Source: Loxodes magnus (Eukaryota > Ciliophora > Karyorelictea > Loxodida > Loxodidae). From it: a DNA stretch of 64,000 bases. Position 1 is the stretch's first letter, and every line of letters begins with the position of its first letter. The notes below the pieces were generated by a model that was given only the letters and a program-made list of their open reading frames with translations, did no database searches and was not told where the DNA came from. The DNA lies in the NCBI GenBank assembly GCA_946699065.1, contig CAMPDV010001798.1, positions 1 to 64,000 of the forward strand, read 5' to 3'. The translations under genes and the position numbers were made by a program. Positions 21,980-64,000 of this stretch are shown here, in pieces.

Positions 21980-22920
21980 AGTTTGGCAATTTGGAGGAAT
22001 TTCACCTCTTCCTGCCGATTGCCGGATTGCTCCGGGATTATATAAAAATGTTTAAAAATTTGATATCCTCTCTCTCACTTGGTCATATTGTCTTCAGTTT
22101 CGTCTTTCATTCTGTTCTGATTTCTTTCTGTAGATCTTGCCAAGCTCATTCATATAAAGTCTTTCTCTATCTCTTCTCTAATGCAGTTGATGTTTTTTCC
22201 TTTATTGCGCTTGTAGTTTTCTTAGCTTTGTTCAGTATTAATTCTTGAAACTTAGGAATTTCTTGCATCTTCTTCATAAATATACTCCCGAATTACAATA
22301 ATAACATCTTTTCTGAATTCTTTTAGGTTTTCTTGTTTCTTCCTTCTCAATCACCATTGGGTCACTTCTTTGCTCATTTTAATCTATTTGTCGTTGCAGT
22401 TTCTCTTCTATTTTTCAAGTCTATTGTCCAGTTCTGTCTGTTTCTGAAGCTAATTTTGGGATTAGCTACTCTGATCTTGTGATATGTTCCAAAAAGCGCT
22501 TAGTTCTCTTTCCTAGGACATGAGTCTTGATTCTATTCCTTCTGCTAGGTTAAACTGTTTCATTAGCTTCTCATTGTCCTTCTTTAGCTACTTGATCTCT
22601 TCCTGGAGATTTAGTACTACTTTGATGAGCTATTCCATGCTCATCTGGCCAGAAGGATTAAATTCTGATACCTCCTGATGCAAAGCAGACTTCGCCTGCT
22701 TTCTGTGCTTCTCCTGAGACGTTGGGGTGAATGCATGGATGATTTTCTTAGATTACTTCTGTTCTTCTTGAACATATTTTCCGGATTATTAAGAAAAAGG
22801 TTAGGGTTAAGTAAAAGAAGACTGGCTGAGAGTGGCTTCTGGTTTCCTCTCCTTCTTAGAGGTGGTGTAAAAACCTTTTTTGAAGCCTTCCATTTTTTAA
22901 TATTTATTAAATATGTTAAA
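21980..22920 (-). pseudogene. retroelement ORF1 remnant with degenerate zinc knuckle
   Basis: The minus-strand protein starts MEGFKKGFYTTSKKERKPEA near 22,890. It contains EVSEFNPSGQMSMEQLIKVV, nearly identical to the ORF1 pseudogene in the 2.9-kb tandem repeats, then a long coiled coil (LQEEIKQLKKDNEKLMKQFN). After a frame change it has CYYCNSGVYLWRRC, a knuckle with Tyr in place of His. The end at 21,985-22,010 matches the family terminus at 9.88 kb. Three plus-strand frames of 85-91 codons in this interval are shadows. Confidence 0.7.
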
Positions 22921-23849: not shown

Positions 23850-24185
23850 GAAACTAAATAATAGAATACTTTTTTGAAAAAAGAAGAAATATAAAATAGG
23901 CTAAATTTTTTGGTTAATGCGTTAATCGTGAAAAAGCAGATTTATTTTAGAAGAAATATTATTATAAAAAACTCATTCTTTTAAAAACTTAAATGTTTTT
24001 AACAAAAAATATTAAGATTTCACTTTAAAAAAATCCAAATTTGATTTTTTTGAACGTATTTGAACTTTGCAATTTTTTTAAAGAAAAAAATTGCGATTAA
24101 CATAAAAAGTTGAAAGATTAATTAAATAAAATGTTTCTAAATTTTTTTAGAGGATCAATCAGAATAAAAAAATCTTTAGAACCAC
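23850..24185. other. AT-rich spacer, no gene seen
   Basis: AT-rich with poly-A and poly-T runs. Nothing recognisable. Confidence 0.4.
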
Positions 24186-24187
24186 AG

Positions 24188-24262
24188 CTTGGAAGTATAC
24201 AGCTTGGAAGTATACAGCTTGGAAGTATACAGCTTGGAAGTATACAGCTTGGAAGTATACAG
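24188..24262. repeat. 15-bp minisatellite, 5 units
   Basis: Five perfect head-to-tail copies of CTTGGAAGTATACAG, directly followed by the 14-bp array. Overlapping plus-strand frames of 115 and 133 codons exist only because the repeats lack stops, so I do not call a gene. Confidence 0.95.
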
Positions 24263-24263
24263 C

Positions 24264-24525
24264 TATACCCGCCGGATTATACCCGCCGGATTATACCCGC
24301 CGGATTATACCCGCCGGATTATACCCGCCGGATTATACCCGCCGGATTATACCCGCCGGATTATACCCGCCGGATTATACCCGCCGGATTATACCCGCCG
24401 GATTATACCCGCCGGATTATACCCGCCGGATTATACCCGCCGGATTATACCCGCCGGATTATACCCGCCGGATTATACCCGCCGGATTATACCCGCCGGA
24501 TTATACCCGCCGGATTATACCCGTC
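24264..24525. repeat. 14-bp GC-rich minisatellite, ~18.5 units
   Basis: Essentially perfect tandem copies of TATACCCGCCGGAT in an otherwise AT-rich region. The unit is not a multiple of three, so all three frames cycle and a coding role is unlikely. A run of 14 C follows at 24,547-24,560. Near-perfect identity implies recent expansion. Confidence 0.95.
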
Positions 24526-26177: not shown

Positions 26178-29100
26178 TCAAATCATCACTGCAATAACAA
26201 AATGAAACTTACGTCCTAAGTTATATTAATATTTATTACCCCCTAATAATAATTTAAAATAGACATACATTCTGAATTACTAATAACATAAATCATACTT
26301 CCTAAATAATATAAACCAGTACGATCTGAAAATAAAAAAACCTAAAAATCAACTTACAAGCTTTTTTTTAATCTAACAATCAACTTACCATCTTTTTTTT
26401 AATCTAACAATCAACTTACTTCTTTTTTTTAATCTAACAATCAACTTACGTTCTTTTTTTTAATCTAACAATCAACTTACGTTCTTTTTTTTAATCTAAC
26501 AATCAACTTACTCATCTTTTTTTTAATCTAACAATCAACTTACAATCTTTTTTTTAATCTAACAATCAACTTACAAGCTTTTTTTTAATCTAACAATCAA
26601 CTTACAAGCTTTTTTTTAATCTAACAATCAACTTACCATCTTTTTTTTAATCTAACAATCAACTTACAATCTTTTTTTTAATCTAACAATCAACTTACTC
26701 ATCTTTTTTTAAATCTAACAATCAACTTACTCACTTTTTTTTAATCTAACAATCAACTTACCATCTTTTTTTTAATCTAACAATCAACTTACTCACTTTT
26801 TTTTAATCTAACAATCAACTTACTCCCTTTTTTTAATCTAACAATCAACTTACGTTCTTTTTTTTAATCTAACAATCAACTTACGTTCTTTTTTTAAATC
26901 TAACAATCAACTTACTCTTTTTTTTAATCTAACAATCAACTTACAAGCTTTTTTTTAATCTAACAATCAACTTACGTTCTTTTTTTTAATCTAACAATCA
27001 ACTTACGTTCTTTTTTTTAATCTAACAATCAACTTACGTTTTTTTAAATCTAATCTAACAATCAACTTACTCATCTTTTTTTTAATCTAACAATCAACTT
27101 ACAATCTTTTTTTTAATCTAACAATCAACTTACTCACTTTTTTTTAATCTAACAATCAACTTACGTTCTTTTTTTTAATCTAACAATCAACTTACAAGCT
27201 TTTTTTTAATCTAACAATCAACTTACAATCTTTTTTTTAATCTAACAATCAACTTACGTTCTTTTTTTTAATCTAACAATCTTACCAACTTTTTTTTAAT
27301 CTAACAATCAACTTACTCACTTTTTTTTAATCTAACAATCAACTTACAATCTTTTTTTTAATCTAACAATCAACTTACAAGCTTTTTTTTAATCTAACAA
27401 TCAACTTACGTTCTTTTTTTTAATCTAACAATCAACTTACCAACGTTCTTTTTTTTAATCTAACAATCAACTTACAAGCTTTTTTTTAATCTAACAATCA
27501 ACTTACAATCTTTTTTTTAATCTAACAATCAACTTACGTTCTTTTTTTTAATCTAACAATCAACTTACGTTCTTTTTTTTAATCTAATCAACTTACGTTC
27601 AATCTAACAATCAACGTTCTTTTTTTTAATCTAACAATCAACTTACGTTCTTTTTTTTAATCTAACAATCAACTTACCATCTTTTTTTTAATCTAACAAT
27701 CAACTTACAATCTTTTTTTTAATCTAACAATCAACTTACAAGCTTTTTTTTAATCTAACAATCAACTTACGTTCTTTTTTTTAATCTAACAATCAACTTA
27801 CCAACTTTTTTTTAATCTAACAATCAACTTACTCTTTTTTTTAATCTAACAATCAACTTACAATCTTTTTTTTAATCTAACAATCAACTTACAAGCTTTT
27901 TTTTAATCTAACAATCAACTTACGTTCTTTTTTTTAATCTAACAATCAACTTACAATCTTTTTTTTAATCTAACAATCAACTTACAAGCTTTTTTTTAAT
28001 CTAACAATCAACTTACGTTCTTTTTTTTAATCTAACAATCAACTTACCAACTTTTTTTTAATCTAACAATCAACTTACGTTCTTTTTTTTAATCTAACAA
28101 TCAACTTACGTTCTTTTTTTTAATCTAACAATCAACTTACCATCTTTTTTTTAATCTAACAATCAACTTACGTTCTTTTTTTTAATCTAACAATCAACTT
28201 ACGTTCTTTTTTTTAATCTAACAATCAACTTACGTTCTTTTTTTTAATCTAACAATCAACTTACGTTCTTTTTTTTAATCTAACAATCAACTTACAAGCT
28301 TTTTTTTAATCTAACAATCAACTTACGTTCTTTTTTTTAATCTAACAATCAACTTACCGTTCTTTTTTTTAATCTAACAATCAACTTACGTTCTTTTTTT
28401 TAATCTAACAATCAACTTACAATCTTTTTTTTAATCTAACAATCAACTTACGTCATCTTTTTTTTAATCTAACAATCAACTTACGTTCTTTTTTTTAATC
28501 TAACAATCAACTTACAAGCTTTTTTTTAATCTAACAATCAACTTACGTTCTTTTTTTTAATCTAACAATCAACTTACCAACTTTTTTTTAATCTAACAAT
28601 CAACTTACTCACTTTTTTTTAATCTAACAATCAACTTACAATCTTTTTTTTAATCTAACAATCAACTTACAAGCTTTTTTTTAATCTAACAATCAACTTA
28701 CGTTCTTTTTTTTAATCTAACAATCAACTTACAAGCTTTTTTTTAATCTAACAATCAACTTACGTTCTTTTTTTTAATCTAACAATCAACTTACAATCTT
28801 TTTTTTAATCTAACAATCAACTTACGTTCTTTTTTTTAATCTAACAATCAACTTACAACTTACGTTCTTTTTTTTAATCTAACAATCAACTTACGTTCAA
28901 CTTACAATCTTTTTTTTAATCTAACAATCAACTTACGTTCTTTTTTTTAATCTAACAATCAACTTACGTTCTTTTTTTTAATCTAACAATCAACTTACGT
29001 TCTTTTTTTTAATCTAACAATCAACTTACGTTCTTTTTTTTAATCTAACAATCAACTTACGTTCTTTTTTTTAATCTAACAATCAACTTACCATCTTTTT

Positions 29101-32100
29101 TTTAATCTAACAATCAACTTTCTTTTTTTTAATCTAACAATCAACTTACAATCTTTTTTTTAATCTAACAATCAACTTACAAGTTCTTTTTTTTAATCTA
29201 ACAATCAACTTACGTTCTTTTTTTTAATCTAACAATCAACTTACAAGCTTTTTTTTAATCTAACAATCAACTTACGTTCTTTTTTTTAATCTAACAATCA
29301 ACTTACCAACAATCTAACAATCAACTTTCTTTTTTTTAATCTAACAATCAACTTACAATCTTTTTTTTAATCTAACAATCAACTTACAAGCTTTTTTTTA
29401 ATCTAACAATCAACTTACGTTCTTTTTTTTAATCTAACAATCAACTTACGTTCTTTTTTTTAATCTAACAATCAACTTACGTTCTTTTTTTTAATCTAAC
29501 AATCAACTTACGTTCTTTTTTTTAATCTAACAATCAACTTACGTTCTTTTTTTTAATCTAACAATCAACTTACGTTCTTTTTTTTAATCTAACAATCAAC
29601 TTACAAGCTTTTTTTTAATCTAACAATCAACTTACGTTCTTTTTTTTAATCTAACAATCAACTTACAATCTTTTTTTTAATCTAACAATCAACTTACAAG
29701 CTTTTTTTTAATCTAACAATCAACTTACGTTCTTTTTTTTAATCTAACAATCAACTTACGTTCTTTTTTTTAATCTAACAATCAACTTACAATCTTTTTT
29801 TTAATCTAACAATCAACTTACGTTCTTTTTTTTAATCTAACAATCAACTTACGTTCTTTTTTTTAATCTAACAATCAACTTACAATCTTTTTTTTAATCT
29901 AACAATCAACTTACGTTCTTTTTTTTAATCTAACAATCAACTTACGTTCTTTTTTTTAATCTAACAATCAACTTACAACTTACTTTTTTTTAATCTAACA
30001 ATCAACTTACGTTCTTTTTTTTAATCTAACAATCAACTTAACTTTTTTTTAATCTAACAATCAACTTACGTTCTCTTTTTTTTAATCTAACAATCAACTT
30101 ACGTTCTTTTTTTTAATCTAACAATCAACTTACAAGCTTTTTTTTAATCTAACAATCAACTTACGTTCTTTTTTTTAATCTAACAATCAACTTACCATCT
30201 TTTTTTTAATCTAACAATCAACTTACTCATCTTTTTTTTAATCTAACAATCAACTTACAATCTTTTTTTTAATCTAACAATCAACTTACAAGTTCTTTTT
30301 TTTAATCTAACAATCAACTTACGTTCTTTTTTTTAATCTAACAATCAACTTACGTTCTTTTTTTTAATCTAACAATCAACTTACGTTCTTTTTTTTAATC
30401 TAACAATCAACTTACAATCTTTTTTTTAATCTAACAATCAACTTACGTTCTTTTTTTTAATCTAACAATCAACTTACGTTCTTTTTTTTAATCTAACAAT
30501 CAACTTACGTTCTTTTTTTTAATCTAACAATCAACTTACGTTCTTTTTTTTAATCTAACAATCAACTTACGTTCTTTTTTTTAATCTAACAATCAACTTA
30601 CGTTCTTTTTTTTAATCTAACAATCAACTTACGTTCTTTTTTTTAATCTAACAATCAACTTACAAGTTCTTTAATCTAACAATCAACTTACTCATCTTTT
30701 TTTTAATCTAACAATCAACTTACCATCTTTTTTTTAATCTAACAATCAACTTACAAGCTTTTTTTTAATCTAACAATCAACTTACGTTCTTTTTTTTAAT
30801 CTAACAATCAACTTACCGTTCTTTTTTTTAATCTAACAATCAACTTACGTTCTTTTTTTTAATCTAACAATCAACTTACGTTCTTTTTTTTAATCTAACA
30901 ATCAACTTACGTTCTTTTTTTTAATCTAACAATCAACTTACGTTCTTTTTTTTAATCTAACAATCAACTTACGTTCTTTTTTTTAATCTAACAATCAACT
31001 TACGTTCTTTTTTTTAATCTAACAATCAACTTACGTTCTTTTTTTTAATCTAACAATCAACTTACAACTTACGTTCTTTTTTTTAATCTAACAATCAACT
31101 TACGTTCTTTTTTTTAATCTAACAATCAACTTACCAACGTTCTTTTTTTTAATCTAACAATCAACTTACAATCTTTTTTTTAATCTAACAATCAACTTAC
31201 GTTCTTTTTTTTAATCTAACAATCAACTTACGTTCTTTTTTTTAATCTAACAATCAACTTACGTTCTTTTTTTTAATCTAACAATCAACTTACGTTCTTT
31301 TTTTTAATCTAACAATCAACTTACGTTCTTTTTTTTAATCTAACAATCAACTTACGTTCTTTTTTTTAATCTAACAATCAACTTACAAGCTTTTTTTTAA
31401 TCTAACAATCAACTTACGTTCTTTTTTTTAATCTAACAATCAACTTACGTTCTTTTTTTTAATCTAACAATCAACTTACGTTCTTTTTTTTAATCTAACA
31501 ATCAACTTACGTTCTTTTTTTTAATCTAACAATCAACTTACGTTCTTTTTTTTAATCTAACAATCAACTTACGTTCTTTTTTTTAATCTAACAATCAACT
31601 TACAAGTTCTTTTTTTTAATCTAACAATCAACTTACGTTCTTTTTTTTAATCTAACAATCAACTTACGTTCTTTTTTTTAATCTAACAATCAACTTACGT
31701 CATCTTTTTTTTAATCTAACAATCAACTTACCATCTTTTTTTTAATCTAACAATCAACTTACGTTCTTTTTTTTAATCTAACAATCAACTTACGTTCTTT
31801 TTTTTAATCTAACAATCACTTTTTTTTAATCTAACAATCAACTTACGTTCTTTTTTTTAATCTAACAATCAACTTACGTTCTTTTTTTTAATCTAACAAT
31901 CAACTTACGTTCTTTTTTTTAATCTAACAATCAACTTACGTTCTTTTTTTTAATCTAACAATCAACTTACAATCTTTTTTTTAATCTAACAATCAACTTA
32001 CGTTCTTTTTTTTAATCTAACAATCAACTTACGTTCTTTTTTTTAATCTAACAATCAACTTACGTTCTTTTTTTTAATCTAACAATCAACTTACGTTCTT

Positions 32101-35100
32101 TTTTTTAATCTAACAATCAACTTACAATCTTTTTTTTAATCTAACAATCAACTTACGTTCTTTTTTTTAATCTAACAATCAACTTACGTTCTTTTTTTTA
32201 ATCTAACAATCAACTTACGTTCTTTTTTTTAATCTAACAATCAACTTACGTTCTTTTTTTTAATCTAACAATCAACTTATCTTTTTTTTAATCTAACAAT
32301 CAACTTACCATCTTTTTTTTAATCTAACAATCAACTTACGTTCTTTTTTTTAATCTAACAATCAACTTACGTTCTTTTTTTTAATCTAACAATCAACTTA
32401 CGTTCTTTTTTTTAATCTAACAATCAACTTACCATCTTTTTTTTAATCTAACAATCAACTTACTCACTTTTTTTTAATCTAACAATCAACTTACGTTCTT
32501 TTTTTTAATCTAACAATCAACTTACGTTCTTTTTTTTAATCTAACAATCAACTTACAAGCTTTTTTTTAATCTAACAATCAACTTACCATCTTTTTTTTA
32601 ATCTAACAATCAACTTACGTTCTTTTTTTTAATCTAACAATCAACTTACCATCTTTTTTTTAATCTAACAATCAACTTACTTCATCTTTTTTTTAATCTA
32701 ACAATCAACTTACGTTCTTTTTTTTAATCTAACAATCAACTTACGTTCTTTTTTTTAATCTAACAATCAACTTACGTTCTTTTTTTTAATCTAACAATCA
32801 ACTTACGTTCTTTTTTTTAATCTAACAATCAACTTACGTTCTTTTTTTTAATCTAACAATCAACTTACGTTCTTTTTTTTAATCTAACAATCAACTTACA
32901 ATCTTTTTTTTAATCTAACAATCAACTTACGTTCTTTTTTTTAATCTAACAATCAACTTACGTTCTTTTTTTTAATCTAACAATCAACTTACGTTCTTTT
33001 TTTTAATCTAACAATCAACTTACGTTCTTTTTTTTAATCTAACAATCAACTTACGTTCTTTTTTTTAATCTAACAATCAACTTACGTTCTTTTTTTTAAT
33101 CTAACAATCAACTTACTTTTTTTTAATCTAACAATCAACTTACCATCTTTTTTTTAATCTAACAATCAACTTACAATCTTTTTTTTAATCTAACAATCAA
33201 CTTACGTTCTTTTTTTTAATCTAACAATCAACTTACGTTCTTTTTTTTAATCTAACAATCAACTTACCAACTTTTTTTTAATCTAACAATCAACTTACTT
33301 CTTTTTTTTAATCTAACAATCAACTTACCCTTTTTTTTAATCTAACAATCAACTTACGTTCTTTTTTTTAATCTAACAATCAACTTACCAACTTTTTTTT
33401 AAATCTAACAATCAACTTACAAGCTTTTTTTTAATCTAACAATCAACTTACAATCTTTTTTTTAATCTAACAATCAACTTACAAGCTTTTTTTTAATCTA
33501 ACAATCAACTTACGTTCTTTTTTTTAATCTAACAATCAACTTACCAACTTTTTTTTTTTTTAAATCTAACAATCAACTTACGTTCTTTTTTTTAATCTAA
33601 CAATCAACTTACAATCTTTTTTTTAATCTAACAATCAACTTACTTCTTTTTTTTAATCTAACAATCAACTTACGTTCTTTTTTTTAATCTAACAATCAAC
33701 TTACAAGCTTTTTTTTAATCTAACAATCAACTTACGTTCTTTTTTTTAATCTAACAATCAACTTACGTTCTTTTTTTAAATCTAACAATCAACTTACTCA
33801 CTTTTTTTTAATCTAACAATCAACGTTCAATTTTTTTTAATCTAACAATCAACTTACAAGCTTTTTTTTAATCTAACAATCAACTTACGTTCTTTTTTTT
33901 AATCTAACAATCAACTTACGTTCTTTTTTTAAATCTAACAATCAACTTACTCACTTTTTTTTAATCTAACAATCAACTTACAATCTTTTTTTTAATCTAA
34001 CAATCAACTTACTCACTTTTTTTTAATCTAACAATCAACTTACGTTCTTTTTTTTAATCTAACAATCAACTTACCATCTTTTTTTTAATCTAACAATCAA
34101 CTTACCATCTTTTTTTTAATCTAACAATCAACTTACAATCTTTTTTTTAATCTAACAATCAACTTACTCACTTTTTTTTAATCTAACAATCAACTTACGT
34201 TCTTTTTTTTAATCTAACAATCAACTTACAAGCTTTTTTTTAATCTAACAATCAACTTACCATCTTTTTTTTTCTAACAATCTAATCTTTTTTTTAATCT
34301 CAACTTACGTTCTTTTTTTTAATCTAACAATCAACTTACGTTCTTTTTTTTAATTCTTTTTTTTAATCTAACAATCAACTTACGTAACAATCAACTTACT
34401 TTTTTTTAATCTAACAATCAACTTACGTTCTTTTTTTTAATCTAACAATCAACTTACAATCTTTTTTTTAATCTAACAATCAACTTACTCACTTTTTTTA
34501 AATCTAACAATCAACTTACCAACTTTTTTTAAATCTAACAATCAACTTACTCACTTTTTTTTAATCTAACAATCAACTTACAATCTTTTTTTTAATCTAA
34601 CAATCAACTTACAATCTTTTTTTTAATCTAACAATCAACTTACAAGCTTTTTTTTAATCTAACAATCAACTTACGTTCTTTTTTTTAATCTAACAATCAA
34701 CTTACGTTCTTTTTTTTAATCTAACAATCAACTTACAAGCTTTTTTTTAATCTAACAATCAACTTACCATCTTTTTTTTAATCTAACAATCAACTTACAA
34801 TCTTTTTTTTAATCTAACAATCAACTTACAAGCTTTTTTTTAATCTAACAATCAACTTACAATCTTTTTTTTAATCTAACAATCAACTTACTCACTTTTT
34901 TTAAATCTAACAATCAACTTACGCCCTTTAATCATATATTTGTTGAAACCAATACTTACAATCTGATCGAAACGATGAAAATTTATTTTACAGTCTAAAA
35001 AAGTATATAAACACTATTTTACTATCTAAAATATTATTTTTTATTCTTACTTCCTGGAATAATATAATTAAGGCTTACATCCTTTAAGAAAAAAAACGTA

Positions 35101-36229
35101 GTAAATCTTATACTTACCTTGTTCTTTATTTAGATTAAAAAATGTTTACCATCTATATTATTTATAAACGGTGAACGTTAAATTTGAACTTACTGAATTT
35201 CATTTGCAACTTCTCACCATTCAAAAAATTATAACTATCTACTGTTTAACTGTCATCCAAAACAACCTTATTCTTAACGATATTCAAACCGTTAGGTAAT
35301 AAATAAGTTTTTTATTTAATCTATTCCTTTATCTATTCGATGGTAGTCTCTTGTTTTACTTATAAAGATACTGTTTTACCATTAGGCGATATAATAGTTA
35401 TCTAGATGTTCGATGGTTTATTTTACTAAAGAATATTTTGAGTTTCTTGAGTTTGTTAAGGCTGATCTACTGGTGATATTTTTTACATTGAGATCAACTG
35501 CGCTTGTAGAGAAGATAACTACTATTACTAAATTTTTACTTAATCACTTAGGTTTTGTATTTCTTTCTTCAATAAGTTATTTTCCTATGTTACTTTAGTA
35601 AGATTAAACTTGCAAGAGTCTAACTCCTCAAAAACTTTAACCGATACCTGATTGTTCTACTGGATGGTCTTTTAGGCATCAGCTACTAATTTTGTTACTT
35701 ATTGCTCACTCTGATGAGATAATTATCCTTACTAAACAAACTACTACTAGTTGTTCCCTTATTTATCCATAAGCTACTTTTAAATTTTGAAAATCCTTAA
35801 CTATCCTTGGATTTATTTATCCTGCTAAATTAACTATCTTTGTAGGTTGATATTTTCCTTTAACAAATAAGTGTTTACGTGCTTAATCAACTACTATATG
35901 AATTTATTTTAGACATTAGCCAATAGTGCCTACGCTTGTCGTACTCTTAAAGATTGATTCTCTAACGTCGTTCGACTTTCTACGAGGTTCTTTTGTTCAA
36001 GATGCTTGAGTAACTAAGCGTCTTTTTGTAAATTTACTGGATGAACATTATGAACTTTTTAGCAATTTTAAATAACACATTTGATTGCCTAACTTTTATA
36101 ATACTAATCATTGACGCAGGTATAGCATATGTTATGCTTACATGGTAGCAACATTGGGATTTTCATCTACCCATCAAAATCTCCTTGACACTAAAGACAT
36201 TTAGCAATCTAGGACATTTCAGATTACAT
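26178..36229 (-). CDS. RING / coiled-coil / ubiquitin-like protein gene with ~290 micro-introns
   Basis: Minus strand. The first exon (36,229-35,194, 345 codons plus one base, no internal UGA) encodes a RING finger (KCLQC...LPCKHNICYTC...KC...C, residues ~8-60). A long Gln-rich coiled coil follows to ~250, then a ubiquitin-like domain (~265-345) with NGKTVSLQVKQETTIEQIKE and LLPNGLNIVKNKVVLDDSQT. Together these suggest a ubiquitin-pathway E3. After A|GTAAG at 35,193 the gene becomes a chain of GT-AG introns of 21-41 nt separated by exons of 3 nt (one of 6 nt). The same pattern continues through the 276-unit array and six more unique introns to a final exon from 26,188. If phase 1 persists the end reads YRKWGLMI then UGA (26,180-26,178). 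If odd-sized exons shift the phase to 0, it reads LIENGD then UGA UGA. In phase 1 the array encodes a Gln-rich tract. Total spliced length would be ~630 codons. Splicing is inferred from sequence only. Confidence 0.7.
26189..26357 (-). other. six unique micro-introns with 3-nt exons (3' flank)
   Basis: On the minus strand, introns occupy 26,326-26,357 (32 nt), 26,302-26,322 (21), 26,272-26,298 (27), 26,243-26,268 (26), 26,216-26,239 (24) and 26,189-26,212 (24). Each starts GTA and ends AG. The exons between them are exactly three bases: ATC, GAA, AAT, GGG and GAC. The intron sequences are unlike each other, so this regularity is not a by-product of tandem duplication. It shows that the micro-exon design existed outside the array. 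Confidence 0.75.
26361..34922 (-). repeat. 31-bp tandem array, ~276 units: 28-nt intron plus 3-nt exon
   Basis: On the plus strand each unit is C, eight T, AATCTAACAATCAACTTAC, then a variable triplet. On the minus strand this is a GTAAGTTGATTGTTAG start, then ATT, eight A and a final G (28 nt, GT-AG), followed by a 3-nt exon. The intron part is almost invariant. Variation is concentrated in the triplet, mostly AAC, ATT, CTT, ATG, TGA or TTG (minus strand). Some units have 1-, 2-, 4-, 5- or 7-nt spacers. A scrambled patch lies at about 34,260-34,400. AAC (GTT on plus) dominates the centre and the edges are more mixed. In phase 1 no pair of these six triplets forms UGA across a junction. It is not a CRISPR array: the spacers are 3 nt and the context is eukaryotic. 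Confidence 0.95.
34923..35193 (-). other. eight unique micro-introns with 3- or 6-nt exons (5' flank)
   Basis: Reading the minus strand from the ubiquitin-like exon, introns lie at 35,153-35,193 (41 nt), 35,124-35,149 (26), 35,082-35,117 (36), 35,054-35,078 (25), 35,026-35,050 (25), 34,995-35,022 (28), 34,963-34,991 (29) and 34,926-34,959 (34). All are GTAA...AG. The exons are ATG, AACAAG, GAT, GAA, ATA, ACT, ATT and GGC, all multiples of three. In phase 1 they read N-E-Q-G-W-N-N-Y-W, using one UGA as Trp. The introns do not resemble one another, apart from the shared GTAAG start. Confidence 0.78.
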
Positions 36230-36239
36230 TATTAATTTT

Positions 36240-36500
36240 AAAAAAACTTTTCCTTATAAGCAAAATACACGTATGTATACGTTAAATAATAATAATAATA
36301 AATAAAAAATATATATAATAAAAAAGTAATTTATTATAATTAAATTATTTTAATTAGAAATATTTTAAATTAATTAATATTTATAATTTAATTTAATAAA
36401 AAGAAAAAAATTAATGTGATTTTATCTGCAAACTATATAAAGAATTAATAAAGTATAAACCTTTTATATAAAAATAATTAATTAATTTTAAACTTAAAGA
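36240..36500. other. AT-rich 5' flank of RING-UBL gene
   Basis: A short spacer with an (AAT)n tract at ~36,284-36,300. It is presumably the promoter region of the minus-strand gene starting at 36,229. No defined motif is seen. Confidence 0.4.
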
Positions 36501-36504
36501 GTTT

Positions 36505-36790
36505 TGGACTGTAACTTCTTGCAGTTTAACGACCCCAACACTCCCTTCATGGGATAACGGGGATATCCTTCCTGTTGCTTTCGAAAAGCAGCTGCCAGGG
36601 AGCTCCGTCGCTATGTGCAGCTAGGCTTCAAGCCCCTACCAGGAGTGGATAATTAAAAGGAAGGTGTTCCCTTGCAAAGGTTGACTTTGACCAGGGATTT
36701 TCTCAGCGACAGGAATGGAACTTGTTCATAGCCATAAAACCAGAAAGTATGATTCAAAAGGTCAATCTCAGCTCCCACCATCTTTTTAAT
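36505..36790. ncRNA. isolated GC-rich island, candidate structured RNA gene
   Basis: About 285 bp at near 50% GC is set sharply into DNA of under 20% GC on both sides. It contains short complementary stems (GCTTTTCGAAAGC, GGTCAAAGTCAACC-like pairs) and no convincing protein in six frames. On the plus strand it ends in T5 at 36,783-36,787, which would suit an RNA polymerase III terminator. I compared it by eye with SRP RNA, RNase P RNA and spliceosomal snRNAs and could not assign it. Strand and identity are open; it may be a species-diverged housekeeping RNA or a retroelement fragment. Confidence 0.5.
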
Positions 36791-41556: not shown

Positions 41557-42379
41557 GATATTTATTAATAATAATAATGTAAACTAAATGTTAAGATTTT
41601 TGGAGTTCTTCGGGATTCCAACCGATTTCGCTCCGCCTTTTTTTTAACGTGGATGTATACCACGGCCTTTTTTTGAATGTGGGTGGCTACCACAATGAAT
41701 TTTCCATGTTACCACTAAATAATTTCTATTTATAAATTCCTGAGTCGGTTATTCAAAGTTTGTTTAACATCCTTCATGTTTTTATTTCTTCTCTTTTTTT
41801 CAATTTTTATCATTTTTAACAATTTTTTAATAAGTGATATTTCGACCTACAACATCAACAATTTTTTGTCTATTTTTTTTTATTCAACTAAGGCAAAACT
41901 AATTTTTTTATTTGTTCTATTCTTTTAATTAAACTTTTATCAACATTTTATTCTATATTTATTTCTTAATCTTTTGCTTAAGAAGGGAGGACTTCAATAC
42001 TCATATTTACCCCTTGTTTGAAATTATTTTAAGACTGAGTATAGAGCTATTGTTCTGTCACAATATTGTTTTATATAAGCTATTTCCTAAGAATTAATAG
42101 TTCGTTATTTTGATCCTCAATGCTATTCATAAGCCCTCTAATTCTTTCTCCTTGATTATATGTTTCTTCTTCATATTTAGAAATTAATTTTTTCATCTTT
42201 TCCATTTCAATTGAAAGCGAAGTGCTCTCATTAACTTGTCCAACCATTACTTTGCCTTCTGAAGAGGAGCTTGATAAGTGTTCCATTTATTTCTACTTCT
42301 TCTCTAGTACATTGTTAGCTCTTCTTCTTGCGTTCCTTGCCTAATTTTTAGATAGTCGAATATTCTATTCCATTTCCAT
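41552..42379 (-). CDS. retroelement ORF1: coiled coil plus CCHC zinc knuckle, intact
   Basis: The minus-strand frame from ATG 42,379 to UGA 41,554-41,552 has 275 codons and no frameshift. It has an Arg-rich head and a heptad coiled coil at ~60-95 (RIRGLMNSIEDQNNELLILR). Its perfect CX2CX4HX4C zinc knuckle, CWCCRSKYHLLKNC, carries a Trp inside encoded by UGA. A Trp/Lys-rich basic tail ends the protein (GWNPEELQKSQH). A Gag-like nucleic-acid-binding ORF1 protein is inferred. Its UGA stop overlaps the ORF2 frame (CAGTGAG), a tight coupling typical of LINE ORF pairs. Within a UGA=Trp code this UGA must act as a context-dependent stop, or be read through to make an ORF1 extension. Confidence 0.75.
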
Positions 42380-42690
42380 TTTTTTTTCCCATGATATTTA
42401 TTTTGATATTTATACTAATAGTAAAAAGTATTAGATGCCTATATGAAGGATAATATTTTGAAAAACTGAAATAAGATCCCTTATACTTGCATAATTAGAA
42501 TTAAATTGATACTAATTATCTTATTTTTAATAATCCAGATTATTTCTTTATTCTCAACTTTTTTATCTTAAAAAGACAGAAAAATAAAAATGTAAACTAA
42601 AATAAATTTAAGCTAAGAATAAGACTTAAAGAACTTACAAAGTAATTGAATCTAAAAAGCTTTACGTTTTAAGTTTTTTGCAAGATTAAG

Positions 42691-42808
42691 TGTTTAAGGT
42701 ATGTTTAAAGCATGTTTAAGATATTTAAAGAGTATATTTAAGGTATGCTTAAATTATGTTTAAGATATGTTTAAGATATGTTTAAGATATGTTTAAGGTA
42801 TGTTTAAG
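42691..42808. repeat. 10-bp minisatellite inside each unit
   Basis: About eleven imperfect copies of TATGTTTAAG with GG/GA and internal variants. The same block recurs at matching offsets in all six units (for example 45,565-45,682). Confidence 0.85.
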
Positions 42809-43230
42809 AGTTTTAGAATTATTTAAAATAAAAAAATATAAAAATAGAATTTTTAATAATAAAATTGAAAAAATAAAAGTAAAAAATTAATTATTATATT
42901 TTAACAAAATTAAAATATGATAAACATTTAATTAAAATATTAAGTTTATTAAAAAATTTTATTTACTTAAAAATTAAAAAAACACACCCAACATAAAAAA
43001 CTATGACTCAGAAATTATAAGATTAAATAAACATAAATAATTAGAATTACTAAAAATATTATAAAAATAATTAAAATAAAAAAAGAAATTAAAATTAAAT
43101 TTATAGTGGATTAAATTGCTTGTAATAAAAAGAAAATTAGTAAAAGTCAAATAATTATTTATAAAAATGAGAAAATATAATAAAAAAATGGCGGACTTAA
43201 AGGAATTTTTTCCTATTCTTAGGAGCCCGG

Positions 43231-43925
43231 TATGTAGCAAAATTACAAGGAAAATAAATATCCAGAAAGTGACTCAAACACAAACATCACAAGAGAAATC
43301 TTGAAAGTCCGTACCTAAGAGGTTTCAGAGTTTAATCCTTCCGGTCAGATGTATATGTAGCAGTTTATTAAAGTAGCGCTAAACCTTCCGGAAGTGATTA
43401 AGAAGCTACCGATAAAGAACTCGAAGCTATCGGAACAGATTCAACATGGACTTCTCTTTAGACCTCAGAAGAGATAATCGGAGTAGCTCGATACATTATG
43501 GAAATACTAGTCAGAACAGTTTAGCTAAACGAACTTCAAAGTACAAAAGATTTAGGACTAAAATGAATAGATTTAAAACTACTTACAAAGCTAAAAGAAA
43601 CTCCAAAGTTAAAAAAGCTAATCCAATCAACGAAAATTAATAGATATAATAGAAATTAAAGAAAAAGGGTCACAGAAAATTTATCCCTGAGGAAAAAGAA
43701 TAAATAAAATGCTATTACTGCAATAGCGAAAGACACTTGCATCTGAACTTGTCTGAAATTCCGAAATTTTTAAAGATAATATTGAATCTAATAACAAAAG
43801 AAGAGGAAACAATTTTATTGTAGCAAGAATGAATATATTTACAGAAAACCTACGATTACAAAAGTAATTGGACCAAAGAGAAGACAATAAGACCTTTGCA
43901 ATCAAGAAATTTTAAACTTTCAAAC
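43231..43925 (+). pseudogene. ORF1 zinc-knuckle pseudogene, unit 1
   Basis: The plus frame starts MQQNYKENKYPESDSNTNIT at 43,235. It contains EVSEFNPSGQMCMQQFIKVA, homologous to the ORF1 at 22.0-22.9 kb, then shifts frame into a Gln-rich coiled coil (VQKIQDQNEQIQNYLQSQKK). It shifts again into a segment with CYYCNSERHLHLN, a zinc knuckle whose last Cys is lost. At least two frameshifts make the copy non-functional. Because three frames all look protein-like in this purine-rich sequence, exact boundaries are uncertain. Downstream, the hairpin at 43,983-44,017 marks the family's GC-rich element in inverse orientation. Confidence 0.6.
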
Positions 43926-43982
43926 TTATTTTAAACGGCAGTGATCTACTGCTTTTGGACAATTTTAAATTAAAATTAATTT

Positions 43983-44017
43983 AGAGAGCGCGGAGCACTT
44001 CGATAGTGCGCAACTCT
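43983..44017. other. GC-rich hairpin shared with the 400-bp repeat
   Basis: AGAGCGCGGAGCACTTCGAT continuing to AGTGCGCAACTCT folds as GCACT/AGTGC plus outer pairs. Its reverse complement matches the terminal hairpin of the structured repeats at ~8,960-8,995 and ~20,505-20,540. It is present once per tandem unit. Possibly an RNA recognition stem of the retroelement. Confidence 0.65.
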
Positions 44018-44029
44018 TTTCAATATTGA

Positions 44030-45160
44030 TAAAAATGAATATTACTTGAGATTTTCAGGTCAATTACATATTGCATCGTAGAGTAAAACATAAGTAGAGG
44101 GAGACAAAAATCTATTATAGGTGTTATGCAACCTCTGATGAAAAATACCTCGAAAGAAAAAACACCTTGAGTCAAGTTATTGAAAGGAATAGCACCATTA
44201 CCGAGGACTAATAAACCGACAGTAGATTATGTGTACTACCTTTCTCCATTCTATGATGAAGATGTCCCTTTCCTCTTCACCCTCAAATTTAGTATGACTT
44301 CCAAATTTAATTATATATAATAAAAATGAGGAAAAAGAAAGAATTGAAAAATTGTTTATTTAGAAAATAGATAGATTGATAAATATAATTAATGATTAAA
44401 AAGATGGCAGGAGCTTAGGCTGATCGTCTGATCAAACTTTTTAGCTTTATGAATAAGGTCAAACTCCGATCCAGTCAATGAGAATGTCTTTGGTTAGAGT
44501 AAATTCCTACATGCGAATAAAAAATTTTGGCTATCACCTCTTGCGAAGACTTGAAGTCTGTTGGCTCATAGTTATGGAACTCCTTACCAAAGTTTATTGG
44601 ATTAAGCAAAAGGATATCCATATCATGTGCCTAAAGAGAGTGCTATGTATTGTTGATCTGAAAGAAGTTTTCATTCACTAGATACATATTAAGTTAATCT
44701 AATTAAAATTGATATTTAAACGTTTGCTTGGATGATTTTCAAAATCTTTCCTGATATCTCCCGTGTTGCTTTTTATATAAAAAATAAACTTAAGAGTTCT
44801 ATGCTTTCACTCATTGTTTTGCATGCAAATCTTGAAATCTCCCGTTCTTCTATCTGTACTTATCTTATTTTTTCTTGTAAATTTATTTAGAATAGCACAT
44901 AATTATTTTTCTATCTTTTTAATTTCATTATCTGCTATGTCTTGTTTTTTCTTGTTTCTATCTTTGTTATTTCCAGCATATTTGAAGTTAATAAATTACT
45001 TACATCTTCTTCATAATTTTTTGTAATTAAAATAATAGTTTTTCTTATTTATTCTTTTTGAATTTGATGATTTTATTTTCCTTTAATATCATCATATGGC
45101 TTCTTTTTTCTTTATGATCATTTTAATGTTGCATTTTAATTTTCTATTATGTCCTTTAAA
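44030..45160. other. rest of unit 1: coding-like mosaic
   Basis: About 44,030-44,330 has a plus frame (NYILHRRVKHKQRETKIYYR, NTLSQVIERNSTITEDQQ) interrupted by the length-variable site. About 44,400-44,690 has another plus frame starting MAGAQADRLIKLFSFMNKVK. About 44,700-45,160 gives a Lys/Asn/Gln-rich minus-strand reading. None matches a family I know, and each is repeated in the other units. Confidence 0.4.
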
Positions 45161-45265
45161 TTCAACGAATTTGTATTCTTAAATTATGGAATTTTGGTAC
45201 AAGATAGTTGCTTCTATTACTACCAAATACTGACCTTTTTTTCTATTTTTGGGATTTAAACTCAC

Positions 45266-48170
45266 TGATATTTATTTTGATATTTATACTAATAGTAAAA
45301 AGTATTAGATGCCTATATGAAGGATAATATTTTGAAAAAGTGAAATAAGATCCCTTATACTTGCATAATTAGAATTAAATTGATACTAATTATCTTATTT
45401 TTAATAATCCAGATTATTTCTTTATTCTCAACTTTTTTATCTTAAAAAGACAGAAAAATAAAAATGTAAACTAAAATAAATTTAAGCTAAGAATAAGACT
45501 TAAAGAACTTACAAAGTAATTGAATCTAAAAAGCTTTACGTTTTAAGTTTTTTGCAAGATTAAGTGTTTAAGGTATGTTTAAAGCATGTTTAAGATATTT
45601 AAAGAGTATATTTAAGGTATGCTTAAATTATGTTTAAGATATGTTTAAGATATGTTTAAGATATGTTTAAGGTATGTTTAAGAGTTTTAGAATTATTTAA
45701 AATAAAAAAATATAAAAATAGAATTTTTAATAATAAAATTGAAAAAATAAAAGTAAAAAATTAATTATTATATTTTAACAAAATTAAAATATGATAAACA
45801 TTTAATTAAAATATTAAGTTTATTAAAAAATTTTATTTACTTAAAAATTAAAAAAACACACCCAACATAAAAAACTATGACTCAGAAATTATAAGATTAA
45901 ATAAACATAAATAATTAGAATTACTAAAAATATTATAAAAATAATTAAAATAAAAAAAGAAATTAAAATTAAATTTATAGTGGATTAAATTGCTTGTAAT
46001 AAAAAGAAAATTAGTAAAAGTCAAATAATTATTTATAAAAATGAGAAAATATAATAAAAAAATGGCGGACTTAAAGGAATTTTTTCCTATTCTTAGGAGC
46101 CCGGTATGTAGCAAAATTACAAGGAAAATAAATATCCAGAAAGTGACTCAAACACAAACATCACAAGAGAAATCTTGAAAGTCCGTACCTAAGAGGTTTC
46201 AGAGTTTAATCCTTCCGGTCAGATGTGTATGTAGCAGTTTATTAAAGTAGCGCTAAACCTTCCGGAAGTGATTAAGAAGCTACCGATAAAGAACTCGAAG
46301 CTATCGGAACAGATTCAACATGGACTTCTCTTTAGACCTCAGAAGGGATAATCAGGAGTAGCTCGATACATTATGGAAATACTAGTCAGAACAGTTTAGC
46401 TAAACGAACTTCAAAGTACAAAAGATTTAGGACTAAAATGAATAGATTTAAAACTACTTACAAAGCTAAAAGAAACTCCAAAGTTAAAAAAGCTAATCCA
46501 ATCAACGAAAATTAATAGATATAATAGAAATTAAAGAAAAAGGGTCACAGAAAATTTATCCCTGAGGAAAAAGAATAAATAAAATGCTATTACTGCAATA
46601 GCGAAAGACACTTGCATCTGAACTTGTCTGAAATTCCGAAATTTTTAAAGATAATATTGAATCTAATAACAAAAGAAGAGGAAACAATTTTATTGTAGCA
46701 AGAATGAATATATTTACAGAAAACCTACGATTACAAAAGTAATTGGACCAAAGAGAAGACAATAAGACCTTTGCAATCAAGAAATTTTAAACTTTCAAAC
46801 TTATTTTAAACGGCAGTGATTTACTGCTTTTGGACAATTTTAAATTAAAATTAATTTAGAGAGCGCGGAGCACTTCGATAGTGCGCAACTCTTTTCAATA
46901 TTGATAAAAATGAATACTACTTGAGATCTTCAGGTCAATTACATATTGCATCGTAGAGTAAAACATAAGTAGAGGGAGACAAAAATCTATTATAGGTGTT
47001 ATGCAACCTCTGATGAAAAATACCTCGAAAGAAAAAACACCTTGAGTCAAGTTATTGAAAGGAATAGCACCATTACCGAGGACTAATAAACCATGTTTCC
47101 AAAGTCCAACCCAATCAGAGGAAGACAACAGTAGATTATGTGTACTACCTTTCTCCATTCTATGATGAAGATGTCCCTTTCCTCTTCACCCTCAAATTTA
47201 GTATGACTTCCAAATTTAATTATATATAATAAAAATGAGGAAAAAGAAAGAATTGAAAAATTGTTTATTTAGAAAATAGATAGATTGATAAATATAATTA
47301 ATGATTAAAAAGATGGCAGGAGCTTAGGCTGATCGTCTGATCAAACTTTTTAGCTTTATGAATAAGGTCAAACTCCGATCCAGTCAATGAGAATGTCTTT
47401 GGTTAGAGTAAATTCCTACATGCGAATAAAAAATTTTGGCTATCACCTCTTGCGAAGACTTGAAGTCTGTTGGCTCATAGTTATGGAACTCCTTACCAAA
47501 GTTTATTGGATTAAGCAAAAGGATATCCATATCATGTGCCTAAAGAGAGTGCTATGTATTGTTGATCTGAAAGAAGTTTTCATTCACTAGATATTAAGTT
47601 AATCTAATTAAAATTGATATTTAAACGTTTGCTTGGATGATTTTCAAAATCTTTCCTGATATCTCCCGTGTTGCTTTTTATATAAAAAATAAACTTAAGA
47701 GTTCTATGCTTTCACTCATTGTTTTGCATGCAAATCTTGAAATCTCCCGTTCTTCTATCTGTACTTATCTTATTTTTTCTTGTAAATTTATTTAGAATAG
47801 CACATAATTATTTTTCTATCTTTTTAATTTCATTATCTGCTATGTCTTCTTTTTTCTTGTTTCTATCTTTGTTATTTCCAGCATATTTGAAGTTAATAAA
47901 TTACTTACATCTTCTTCATAATTTTTTGTAATTAAAATAATAGTTTTTCTTATTTATTCTTTTTGAATTTGATGATTTTATTTTCCTTTAATATCATCAT
48001 ATGGCTTCTTTTTTCTTTATGATCATTTTAATGTTGCATTTTAATTTTCTATTATGTCCTTTAAATTCAACGAATTTGTATTCTTAAATTATGGAATTTT
48101 GGTACAAGATAGTTGCTTCTATTACTACCAAATACTGACCTTTTTTTCTATTTTTGGGATTTAAACTCAC
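45266..48170. repeat. tandem unit 2
   Basis: Full unit with the ORF1 pseudogene at ~46,105-46,800. The variable site (47,081-47,132) has the longest allele, 46 nt between ACCGAGGAC and AGTAGATT. It also lacks one CATA in the TACATATTAAG present at 44,682 of unit 1 (here at ~47,590). Confidence 0.95.
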
Positions 48171-51063
48171 TGATATTTATTTTGATATTTATACTAATAG
48201 TAAAAAGTATTAGATGCCTATATGAAGGATAATATTTTGAAAAACTGAAATAAGATCCCTTATACTTGCATAATTAGAATTAAATTGATACTAATTATCT
48301 TATTTTTAATAATCCAGATTATTTCTTTATTCTCAACTTTTTTATCTTAAAAAGACAGAAAAATAAAAATGTAAACTAAAATAAATTTAAGCTAAGAATA
48401 AGACTTAAAGAACTTACAAAGTAATTGAATCTAAAAAGCTTTACGTTTTAAGTTTTTTGCAAGATTAAGTGTTTAAGGTATGTTTAAAGCATGTTTAAGA
48501 TATTTAAAGAGTATATTTAAGGTATGCTTAAATTATGTTTAAGATATGTTTAAGATATGTTTAAGATATGTTTAAGGTATGTTTAAGAGTTTTAGAATTA
48601 TTTAAAATAAAAAAATATAAAAATAGAATTTTTAATAATAAAATTGAAAAAATAAAAGTAAAAAATTAATTATTATATTTTAACAAAATTAAAATATGAT
48701 AAACATTTAATTAAAATATTAAGTTTATTAAAAAATTTTATTTACTTAAAAATTAAAAAAACACACCCAACATAAAAAACTATGACTCAGAAATTATAAG
48801 ATTAAATAAACATAAATAATTAGAATTACTAAAAATATTATAAAAATAATTAAAATAAAAAAAGAAATTAAAATTAAATTTATAGTGGATTAAATTGCTT
48901 GTAATAAAAAGAAAATTAGTAAAAGTCAAATAATTATTTATAAAAATGAGAAAATATAATAAAAAAATGGCGGACTTAAAGGAATTTTTTCCTATTCTTA
49001 GGAGCCCGGTATGTAGCAAAATTACAAGGAAAATAAATATCCAGAAAGTGACTCAAACACAAACATCACAAGAGAAATCTTGAAAGTCCGTACCTAAGAG
49101 GTTTCAGAGTTTAATCCTTCCGGTCAGATGTGTATGTAGCAGTTTATTAAAGTAGCGCTAAACCTTCCGGAAGTGATTAAGAAGCTACCGATAAAGAACT
49201 CGAAGCTATCGGAACAGATTCAACATGGACTTCTCTTTAGACCTCAGAAGGGATAATCAGGAGTAGCTCGATACATTATGGAAATACTAGTCAGAACAGT
49301 TTAGCTAAACGAACTTCAAAGTACAAAAGATTTAGGACTAAAATGAATAGATTTAAAACTACTTACAAAGCTAAAAGAAACTCCAAAGTTAAAAAAGCTA
49401 ATCCAATCAACGAAAATTAATAGATATAATAGAAATTAAAGAAAAAGGGTCACAGAAAATTTATCCCTGAGGAAAAAGAATAAATAAAATGCTATTACTG
49501 CAATAGCGAAAGACACTTGCATCTGAACTTGTCTGAAATTCCGAAATTTTTAAAGATAATATTGAATCTAATAACAAAAGAAGAGGAAACAATTTTATTG
49601 TAGCAAGAATGAATATATTTACAGAAAACCTACGATTACAAAAGTAATTGGACCAAAGAGAAGACAATAAGACCTTTGCAATCAAGAAATTTTAAACTTT
49701 CAAACTTATTTTAAACGGCAGTGATTTACTGCTTTTGGACAATTTTAAATTAAAATTAATTTAGAGAGCGCGGAGCACTTCGATAGTGCGCAACTCTTTT
49801 CAATATTGATAAAAATGAATACTACTTGAGATTTTCAGGTCAATTACATATTGCATCGTAGAGTAAAACATAAGTAGAGGGAGACAAAAATCTATTATAG
49901 GTGTTATGCAACCTCTGATGAAAAATACCTCGAAAGAAAAAACACCTTGAGTCAAGTTATTGAAAGGAATAGCACCATTACCGAGGACTAATAGCATGTT
50001 TCCAAAAACCCAATCGACAGTAGATTATGTGTACTACCTTTCTCCATTCTATGATGAAGATGTCCCTTTCCTCTTCACCCTCAAATTTAGTATGACTTCC
50101 AAATTTAATTATATATAATAAAAATGAGGAAAAAGAAAGAATTGAAAAATTGTTTATTTAGAAAATAGATAGATTGATAAATATAATTAATGATTAAAAA
50201 GATGGCAGGAGCTTAGGCTGATCGTCTGATCAAACTTTTTAGCTTTATGAATAAGGTCAAACTCCGATCCAGTCAATGAGAATGTCTTTGGTTAGAGTAA
50301 ATTCCTACATGCGAATAAAAAATTTTGGCTATCACCTCTTGCGAAGACTTGAAGTCTGTTGGCTCATAGTTATGGAACTCCTTACCAAAGTTTATTGGAT
50401 TAAGCAAAAGGATATCCATATCATGTGCCTAAAGAGAGTGCTATGTATTGTTGATCTGAAAGAAGTTTTCATTCACTAGATACATATTAAGTTAATCTAA
50501 TTAAAATTGATATTTAAACGTTTGCTTGGATGATTTTCAAAATCTTTCCTGATATCTCCCGTGTTGCTTTTTATATAAAAAATAAACTTAAGAGTTCTAT
50601 GCTTTCACTCATTGTTTTGCATGCAAATCTTGAAATCTCCCGTTCTTCTATCTGTACTTATCTTATTTTTTCTTGTAAATTTATTTAGAATAGCACATAA
50701 TTATTTTTCTATCTTTTTAATTTCATTATCTGCTATGTCTTGTTTTTTCTTGTTTCTATCTTTGTTATTTCCAGCATATTTGAAGTTAATAAATTACTTA
50801 CATCTTCTTCATAATTTTTTGTAATTAAAATAATAGTTTTTCTTATTTATTCTTTTTGAATTTGATGATTTTATTTTCCTTTAATATCATCATATGGCTT
50901 CTTTTTTCTTTATGATCATTTTAATGTTGCATTTTAATTTTCTATTATGTCCTTTAAATTCAACGAATTTGTATTCTTAAATTATGGAATTTTGGTACAA
51001 GATAGTTGCTTCTATTACTACCAAATACTGACCTTTTTTTCTATTTTTGGGATTTAAACTCAC
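48171..51063. repeat. tandem unit 3
   Basis: Full unit with the ORF1 pseudogene at ~49,010-49,705. The variable site (49,981-50,020) has a unique 30-nt allele missing both an inner and a right-hand block relative to unit 2. Confidence 0.95.
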
Positions 51064-63180: not shown

Positions 63181-63189
63181 TTTTCTTCC

Positions 63190-64000
63190 TATTTTGGTTT
63201 ATCTTTTTCTTCCTCTCTAATTTATTTTTTATTTTCTTTAGTTATTTGAAAACCATATCTTTCTAGTGAGGTCTGATATTTTTAAGTTTGAATGTACTAG
63301 TTTTTAATGTTTGCTTTTTTCTTCCATATCATTTTTCTTTCTTCTGAGTTTAGGGAAATTTTATTATAATGCTCGCTTCTTTCTCAATGCTTTCTTGTTG
63401 TTTCACATTTTTTTTGTCATATTTCCTATTTTAAAGCGGTGTTGATCAATTAGTTTGACTACTTATTTAATTTTTCCTATTACTGACCTTTTATTATATA
63501 AGCTCTAGATTTGAAAAAGTCTCATCTTTGTTTATGTTTTATTTTTTAATTCTAAATTCAGAGTATGTTCTAAGAAAATATTTATGCTTTCACCATGTTT
63601 TCTTCCTTAGCTTCCTCTACTATCTCCAGTTATTCTTCTTAGCATGGCATGTTATTTCTGATTTCTAGCATCATAATGTTTATTTAGATTTATTCAGCTC
63701 TTTTGACAGTTTCCATTATGGCATTCTTTCTCAAGCACTGTTATTTGCTGTGTCCAATTTTATTACACTCTTAGCATTTTCATTTTGCCGGAAGACTCAC
63801 CCATGTTTTTGTTCCTCCTATGTCAATTTATTCCGGGATCTGATCATCCTTTTTAAAGTCATTTAGTTCTAAGTACGTTGTCATTCTTCCATTCACCCAT
63901 GTTTCTCCTTTTATTGTTTCCACTTTTGAGTGTGTGATTCTGCCATATCTCTGTAGTTCAGTTTCTACTTAGTTTCAAACTTGCATTTATGTCTAGCGTT
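63190..64000 (-). pseudogene. LINE ORF1 with CCHC zinc knuckle, partial
   Basis: Minus-strand sequence at the window edge. The knuckle CQECNKIGHSKQQC lies at 63,735-63,776 (both Gln are UAA/UAG). A Glu/Lys-rich region follows toward the endonuclease (VKQLINTALK, KHWERSEHY). The 5' end lies beyond the window. The position upstream of the endonuclease fits ORF1 of this LINE. I could not confirm one unbroken frame. Confidence 0.6.

Follow-up and report, generated by a model that had tools for sequence, protein, structure and literature searches.

Putative single-codon exons and an expandable micro-intron array in a family of RING and ubiquitin-like genes of Loxodes magnus

Genes with many very short exons are known from schistosomes and aphids. 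The schistosome micro-exon genes (MEG) are 35 genes with 10–20 exons of 6–81 bp (also given as 3–81 bp), mostly 15 bp long, and introns of 0.1–5 kb; most exons are multiples of three, and the proteins of the family are variable (PMC10526429). The bicycle genes of aphids evolve fast and have about 17 exons on average, almost all internal micro-exons being in one phase, and megacycle contains more than 100 micro-exons (PMC9168663). We have analyzed a stretch of 64,000 nucleotides (nt) from the ciliate Loxodes magnus (assembly GCA_946699065.1, contig CAMPDV010001798.1, positions 1 to 64,000), called the window, whose minus strand contains a gene coding for a RING, a coiled coil and a ubiquitin-like domain (UBL). 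We propose, with a probability of roughly 0.85, that its open reading frame (ORF) leads into a series of genuine spliceosomal micro-introns separated by single-codon exons, part of which is a frame-safe, expandable array.

Judged by analogy, MEG and bicycle genes are the nearest known architectures. The Loxodes gene also appears to have many short exons in one phase, and it belongs to a variable family. The differences from MEG are considerable: in the Loxodes family the 3 nt exons are consecutive, the introns are mostly of 21–42 nt and near-identical within an array, and there are from 30 to more than 250 introns per gene, in 155 scored loci. Arrays of identical introns and runs of single-codon exons are not mentioned in the portions of the MEG and bicycle papers available (PMC10526429, PMC9168663). 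Dozens of consecutive tandem introns are also found in SNHG14 with SNORD115/116 (29 and 48), where the introns carry snoRNA-like RNAs, whereas in the Loxodes family the exons would carry variable coding information (PMC11608373).

Introns are tiny throughout L. magnus, with a mean of 19.3 nt, a mode of 17 nt and 93% of them of 25 nt or less, but those flanking the arrays of this family measure 21–42 nt. The genetic code reads UAA and UAG as glutamine and UGA as tryptophan or stop. In the published annotation, masking was applied to tandem repeats of 1 kb or more, and introns were taken from read mapping, with a 40 nt limit (all PMC11441545). Repeat masking may have hidden the family from annotation. 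Standard read mapping needs anchors longer than 3 nt.

With UAA and UAG as glutamine, the minus-strand ORF is open from 36229 to 35194. It ends in phase 1 (...AAA TTC A), followed by a GTAAG donor, and the codon-usage signal ends at 35189, adjoining this donor. From there down to 26178 on the minus strand, GTA...AG segments are chained with triplets between them. The features, with exons and introns as predicted, are:

35194–36229, minus strand: first exon, with the RING at about 36062–36199, a coiled coil, and the UBL at about 35195–35401
35153–35193, minus strand: intron 1, 41 nt (35–42 nt across copies)
34923–35152, minus strand: 5' chain, exons ATG, AACAAG, GAT, GAA, ATA, ACT, ATT and GGC
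26358–34922, minus strand: array of about 266–277 units, each a 28 nt intron plus a triplet, the hypervariable segment
26189–26357, minus strand: 3' chain, exons ATC, GAA, AAT, GGG and GAC
26357–26326, 26322–26302, 26298–26272, 26268–26243, 26239–26216 and 26212–26189, minus strand: introns of the 3' chain
26178–26188, minus strand: terminal exon, TGATGATTTGA, read in phase 1 as (C)TG ATG ATT TGA, L-M-I-stop

Tandem Repeats Finder detects 277.5 copies of a 31 bp unit at 26342–34923. Read on the minus strand, the unit consists of GTAAGTTGATTGTTAGATTAAAAAAAAG and a variable triplet, mostly AAC, ATT, CTT, ATG, TGA or TTG; the 28 nt segment is almost invariant. Of its two neighbours, from which the unit might have arisen as a hybrid, the 3' one alone is clearly similar to it. 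The array is flanked by eight upstream and six downstream GTA...AG segments of 21–41 nt, whose spacers are of 3 nt, once of 6 nt. Seven introns of 25–36 nt lie between the exons of the 5' chain, whose phase 1 peptide would be N-E-Q-G-W(UGA)-N-N-Y-W. The joined flank exons expected in a spliced transcript, next to the UBL end, are RRMAAGGATGRRATNNNTATT. A preliminary description of this locus, made from the sequence by eye, gave the same coordinates and anatomy. It also took the 14 flank segments to be unrelated, which agrees with their lack of a common sequence (mean pairwise z 0.12), except for the first downstream one, the sole flank segment which resembles the array unit, in its 5' half.

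The spacing in the flanks is not due to chance. The pattern AG-N3-GTA occurs there 12 times, against 0.79 expected, and this number was reached in none of 20,000 dinucleotide shuffles, which rules out a chance origin. Its rate is 26.7 per kb in the flanks and 0.66 per kb in the rest of the window, both strands included. Intron 1 was also considered as coding sequence and rejected: Its codon score falls with non-coding DNA, and it cannot be coding because its length differs between copies. Scans for Rfam families and for tRNAs (bacterial code) gave no match in the window, and the exact 28-mer was found in no viral contig, in a collection from which records near the genome of the window may be left out.

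The window gene is one of a large ciliate family. A search of the assembly with the ORF gave 118 scored copies, and another, started from a distant member, gave 117, of which 37 were new, for a total of 155 loci including that of the window. Loci with identical scores are among them, perhaps as alleles or assembly duplicates. A pattern made of the UBL end and intron 1 has 142 matches, against none in a reversed control, and among the first matches listed, 16 are near none of the 155 loci. We have read 41 of the 155 copies, the window and 40 others, picked from the score list, so that far relatives are under-sampled. All 41 contain a chain of at least five consecutive introns, with exons of 3 or 6 nt. 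In the 20 copies fetched at 10 kb, a tandem array directly follows the ORF in every case; its units, of about 30–33 bp, differ between subfamilies. Perfect tandem arrays of 14 and 15 bp, differing in copy number, are also found after the gene in several copies (24184–24523 in the window, L016:4070–4626, L020:3880–4295).

A generic pattern (26 nt intron, 3 nt exon, next donor) has 243 matches, against 50 in the reversed control. It led to C408, where there is a RING / coiled-coil / UBL ORF only 24% identical to that of the window (E 5e-8 in a single comparison; Pfam ubiquitin 5.5e-5, below the cut-off). The end of this ORF (NGxxLxMxx plus one base) matches that of the window ORF, the position and phase of the first intron thus being kept, and an automatic parse of its chain (L058) gives 28 exons of 3 nt. 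In another stretch, L059, 25 AG-N3-GTA are kept in 801 nt with diverged intron bodies. The architecture thus looks old, and the arrays seem young in the subfamily of the window. In the flanks of some distant copies, among L036–L048, there are units with AG directly before GTAAG, as if they contained zero-length exons, which resembles recursive splicing.

The ORF itself behaves as a protein-coding gene. It is open throughout in one frame in 41 of 41 copies, with ratios of non-synonymous to synonymous substitution (dN/dS) of 0.22–0.64 over distance bins, and is thus under purifying selection. Eight cysteine and histidine positions of the RING, the zinc ligands, are invariant in 25 copies. Pfam detects ubiquitin in the window ORF (7.7e-8), while the RING models are weak and below the cut-off. 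All the PDB profile matches listed (60 of 175) fall on the UBL, mostly to ubiquitin or its variants. Together, the eight zinc ligands and the UBL would correspond to a RING E3 ligase with a ubiquitin-like domain. No protein homologue outside the family was found at E 0.001 among 1523 candidates, and a fold prediction, with a mean pLDDT (predicted local distance difference test) of 46.5, was too weak to be used. The copies are dispersed in both orientations, and homology to the window extends beyond the gene: for example, the 5.9 kb downstream are 97% identical in L013, and upstream it reaches at least 37.7 kb in L002–L008, with 93–96% over the aligned stretch. These two features would fit genes which travel as passengers of a dispersed repeated unit or a mobile element, their array variability being a by-product of its spread and not a host function. 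Such an origin is possible but doubtful, given the purifying selection and the single open frame; also, the Pfam scans, which covered part of the neighbourhood only, named no transposase. It is in any case compatible with the chain of micro-introns.

We have aligned the flank with the introns and exons 1–7 of the window in the 41 copies. Splice sites are kept, with substitutions in 0.7% of GT and 0.2% of AG (574 cells each), while 15.1% of the cells are substituted and 4.9% gapped in intron bodies (6314 cells). Exons have 16.3% of substitutions and not a single gap in 984 cells, and all 149 inserted letters fall inside intron bodies. This is what is found in spliceosomal GT-AG introns: conserved ends and drifting bodies. 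Exons are more variable than intron bodies in the 14 closest copies (4.2% vs 1.3%), the reverse of an ordinary gene. The flank introns of the family are of 21–42 nt and the exons of 3 nt, with one of 6 nt. Intron lengths cover all values modulo 3 (121, 103 and 93 of 317), so only the exons determine the frame.

These results bear on two other explanations. The first is a satellite downstream of the gene, merely intron-like and never spliced. The array introns within a copy of the window's subfamily are nearly identical, as in a young satellite, and tandem repeats are reported to be abundant in the Loxodes assembly (PMC11441545). But unrelated flank segments have only GT, AG and the 3 nt spacing in common, splice sites are kept against drifting bodies, and the UBL frame goes on with conserved residues, which makes a satellite very improbable. 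The second, raised in the preliminary description, is that the 28 bp segments are excised from the DNA during macronuclear development, an elimination for which ciliates are known. The published L. magnus assemblies are of 706 Mbp (macronuclear) and 848 Mbp (micronuclear), and no canonical internal eliminated sequences are reported in this species (PMC11441545). The segments are present in the assembly we have used, of 705,730,643 bases and apparently macronuclear, while eliminated sequences should be absent from the macronucleus; moreover, their GTA...AG boundaries are those of introns. Excision from DNA is the least credible of all the explanations we have considered.

The reading frame can be followed from the UBL into the chain. 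In 39 of the 41 copies (L024 and L040 are omitted, since their chains ended early), the mean pairwise peptide identity over exons 1–7 is 0.651 in phase 1, the UBL frame, and 0.605 and 0.570 in the other two. The phase 1 residues include N in 39 of 39 copies, G in 38, W in 39 and Y in 35; the other positions are E/K/Q/R, Q/K/L, mostly N/D, and one variable residue. The conserved W is coded by UGG in 36 copies and by UGA in three. The difference between phases is modest: To judge from these peptides, it is the invariant W in two codons, together with the agreement with the UBL frame, which carries the argument. At the other end, the tail reads Y-R-[EQV]-W-G-L-M-[IS]-UGA in 12 of the 13 copies L009–L021; the tail of L012 has one triplet less, YREWVMS-UGA, still in frame. 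The last codons are different in other subfamilies, and UGA is absent from the tail position in L026 and L056. UGA as a stop directly after the UBL is ruled out by the family codon which is either UGG or UGA, and by the UGA at tryptophan-like positions in another ORF of the window, at 1831–4659.

The arrays of L009–L021, which belong to the window's subfamily, parse completely and are very regular. Each of these 13 copies contains 30–127 introns, which take up 90–91% of the span, and the exons are of 3 nt (664) or 6 nt (13), with no other length. Total exon length is divisible by three in all 13. Gaps between recognisable array introns, measured independently of the parse, are of 3 nt in 451 of 451 cases. 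L024 is less regular, its unit spacing varies (33, 32, 27, 39), with AG placed 3 nt before the donor in 209 of 236 cases. Array statistics come from 16 parsed copies. Introns of modal length are near-identical, with a diversity of 0.000–0.018 per site, while exons are near-random, with a diversity of 0.50–0.69, both in 14 subfamily copies; intron diversity is 0.07 in L022 and L027. The 564 array exons of the 15 copies other than the window contain 27 distinct triplets.

The arrays change by gain and loss of whole units. The ORFs of L018 and L019, which may be alleles or assembly duplicates, are 0.1% apart, and their arrays, of 47 and 43 units, are separated by six edits; in four of these, between one and four whole units are gained or lost. 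When ORFs are 0.8–3% apart, the order of array units is mostly no better shared than in shuffled arrays; the exceptions are L009/L010 (0.95 vs 0.82) and, slightly, L010/L011. Repeated blocks of up to 36 units are found in L015. With tandem units gained and lost as such, the array works like a minisatellite with an additional splice and frame constraint.

The arrays also allow another kind of splicing, in which the flank micro-exons are spliced and the array is normally taken out as one large intron or as a few, so that the triplets would rarely enter the mRNA and the array would be a tolerated in-frame minisatellite. Its donors and acceptors are alike, any pairing of them in a regular copy stays in frame, and the fast turnover, with little order conserved, would be expected. 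Nevertheless, we consider it unlikely: The length of skipped exons would not matter, and therefore the constant 3 nt of the 451 spacers, found while array intron lengths vary, speaks against it. The stretch L059, which has kept its 3 nt spacing between diverged bodies, is a further point.

Several observations weigh against single-codon splicing. The exact 3 nt spacing claimed in the preliminary description is found in the flanks, but in the window's own array only 222 of the 248 gaps between consecutive recognisable introns are of 3 nt, the other 26 are of 1–14 nt. The rule thus fits the 13 other subfamily copies better than the window copy, which, of the 14 compared, shows the least regularity, perhaps due to decay or to the assembly of an 8.6 kb array. 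The exons keep the frame, with exceptions in the window copy, in L022, which has one exon of 13 nt and a shifted frame, in L027, with one of 27 nt, and in L058, where the automatic parse gives one exon each of 6, 24, 30 and 37 nt. L022, L027 and the 13 regular copies are the 15, besides the window, which could be parsed as far as a terminal motif; in five further copies our script found none. The 3' chain matches a five-exon pattern in 21 of 23 copies (not in L012 and L024), but this pattern fixes AT., GGG and GA. and the preceding T is supplied, so that only the free bases are evidence: R in 17, E in 16, T before GG (thus W) in 21 and L in 20 of 21. The donor counts (GTA 297, GTG 16, GCA 4 among 317), like those of acceptors, are partly built into the parse, which admits such donors only; the substitution figures of the 41 copies are free of this bias but depend on an alignment. 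The homogeneity of an array could by itself keep the spacers alike without selection. The G+C content of flank triplets is above that of intron bodies but not above that of the other AG-N3-GTA triplets of the window. UGA codons show no depletion in the arrays: their coding phase contains 4, and shuffling predicts 1.0. A search for spliced retrocopies gave five pattern matches, against six in the reversed control, none of them in the family. Finally, unit-by-unit splicing of the RNA is something we infer from genomic DNA, and not from transcripts.

Some irregular spacers of the window array (AACTT, ATGA, AACGTTG; 26358–34922) resemble junctions of two neighbouring units.

In spite of these points, the conserved GT and AG, the drifting bodies, the lack of exon gaps and the continued UBL frame give strong support to the splicing of single-codon exons proposed in the preliminary description, as far as comparison of genomic copies can tell. 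In the mechanism we suggest, the RING / coiled-coil / UBL ORF would be followed by a chain of spliceosomal micro-introns, with 3 nt exons in phase 1, the middle of which is an expandable tandem array of near-identical introns and differing triplets. Splicing would join the triplets in frame, leading from the conserved peptide after the UBL to the conserved C-terminal peptide. Gain, loss and exchange of units between introns would rebuild the segment with the frame intact, because each unit brings three coding bases and the introns are near-identical; recombination between these introns probably drives the turnover. The neighbouring acceptor and donor of a 3 nt exon could hardly be bound at once, which implies that the micro-introns would be removed stepwise, presumably co-transcriptionally. 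As the code has no dedicated stops, any array, even in unspliced RNA, would be translatable, and the usual penalty for mis-splicing would be removed.

A more tentative suggestion, which we regard as somewhat less likely to be right than wrong, is that the family diversifies its proteins codon by codon. The near-identical 28 nt introns would serve as recombination handles, one between every two adjacent codons, each gene would have a private hypervariable segment, and a repertoire of RING-UBL proteins would result. Whenever units are exchanged, the split codons (x3|x1x2) would be rewritten, and the stop-less code would make all combinations translatable. Variability may then be the purpose of the array, and the hypervariable segments may have a recognition role, possibly as modules which steer ubiquitination in a single-celled eukaryote. 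Fish TRIM genes, which also contain a RING, and fungal NLRs are likewise large, diversified intracellular families (PMC2657112, PMC4986451). This is an analogy of purpose only, we claim no homology beyond the RING.

The rest of the window contains several other features. The long plus-strand ORF at 1831–4659, in which no intron was found, has kelch-like repeats, a membrane-protein end and the in-frame UGA codons mentioned above; it has no Pfam match, so that kelch is a reading by eye only. Most of the ORFs compared with Pfam had no match. Upstream of the gene, at 36500–36790, there is a palindrome-like stretch richer in G+C. About six direct copies of a unit of about 2.9 kb are found at approximately 42000–58300, each with an array of the 11 bp repeat TGTTTAAGGTA and an ORF fragment, which has a short motif in common with the ORF at 22066–22896. 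The minus strand at about 60400–64000 contains an element similar to long interspersed nuclear elements, with an endonuclease/reverse-transcriptase-like match (PF14529, 3.4e-5, below the cut-off).

In the literature searched, which consisted of titles and abstract openings, with preprints and most subscription journals outside, we have found no gene with consecutive single-codon exons, and the preliminary description knew of none. If the RNA is processed as proposed, it would be an extreme intron-exon architecture, in which about 90% of the region after the UBL is removed as tens to hundreds of micro-introns. It raises the question of how the spliceosome defines 3 nt exons between introns of some 25 nt. 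Since the arrays are of the kind of repeat masked by annotation, similar families may be overlooked elsewhere. The stop-less code of Loxodes may be what makes single-codon exons tolerable, and in this family a protein segment would become hypervariable with no frameshifts.

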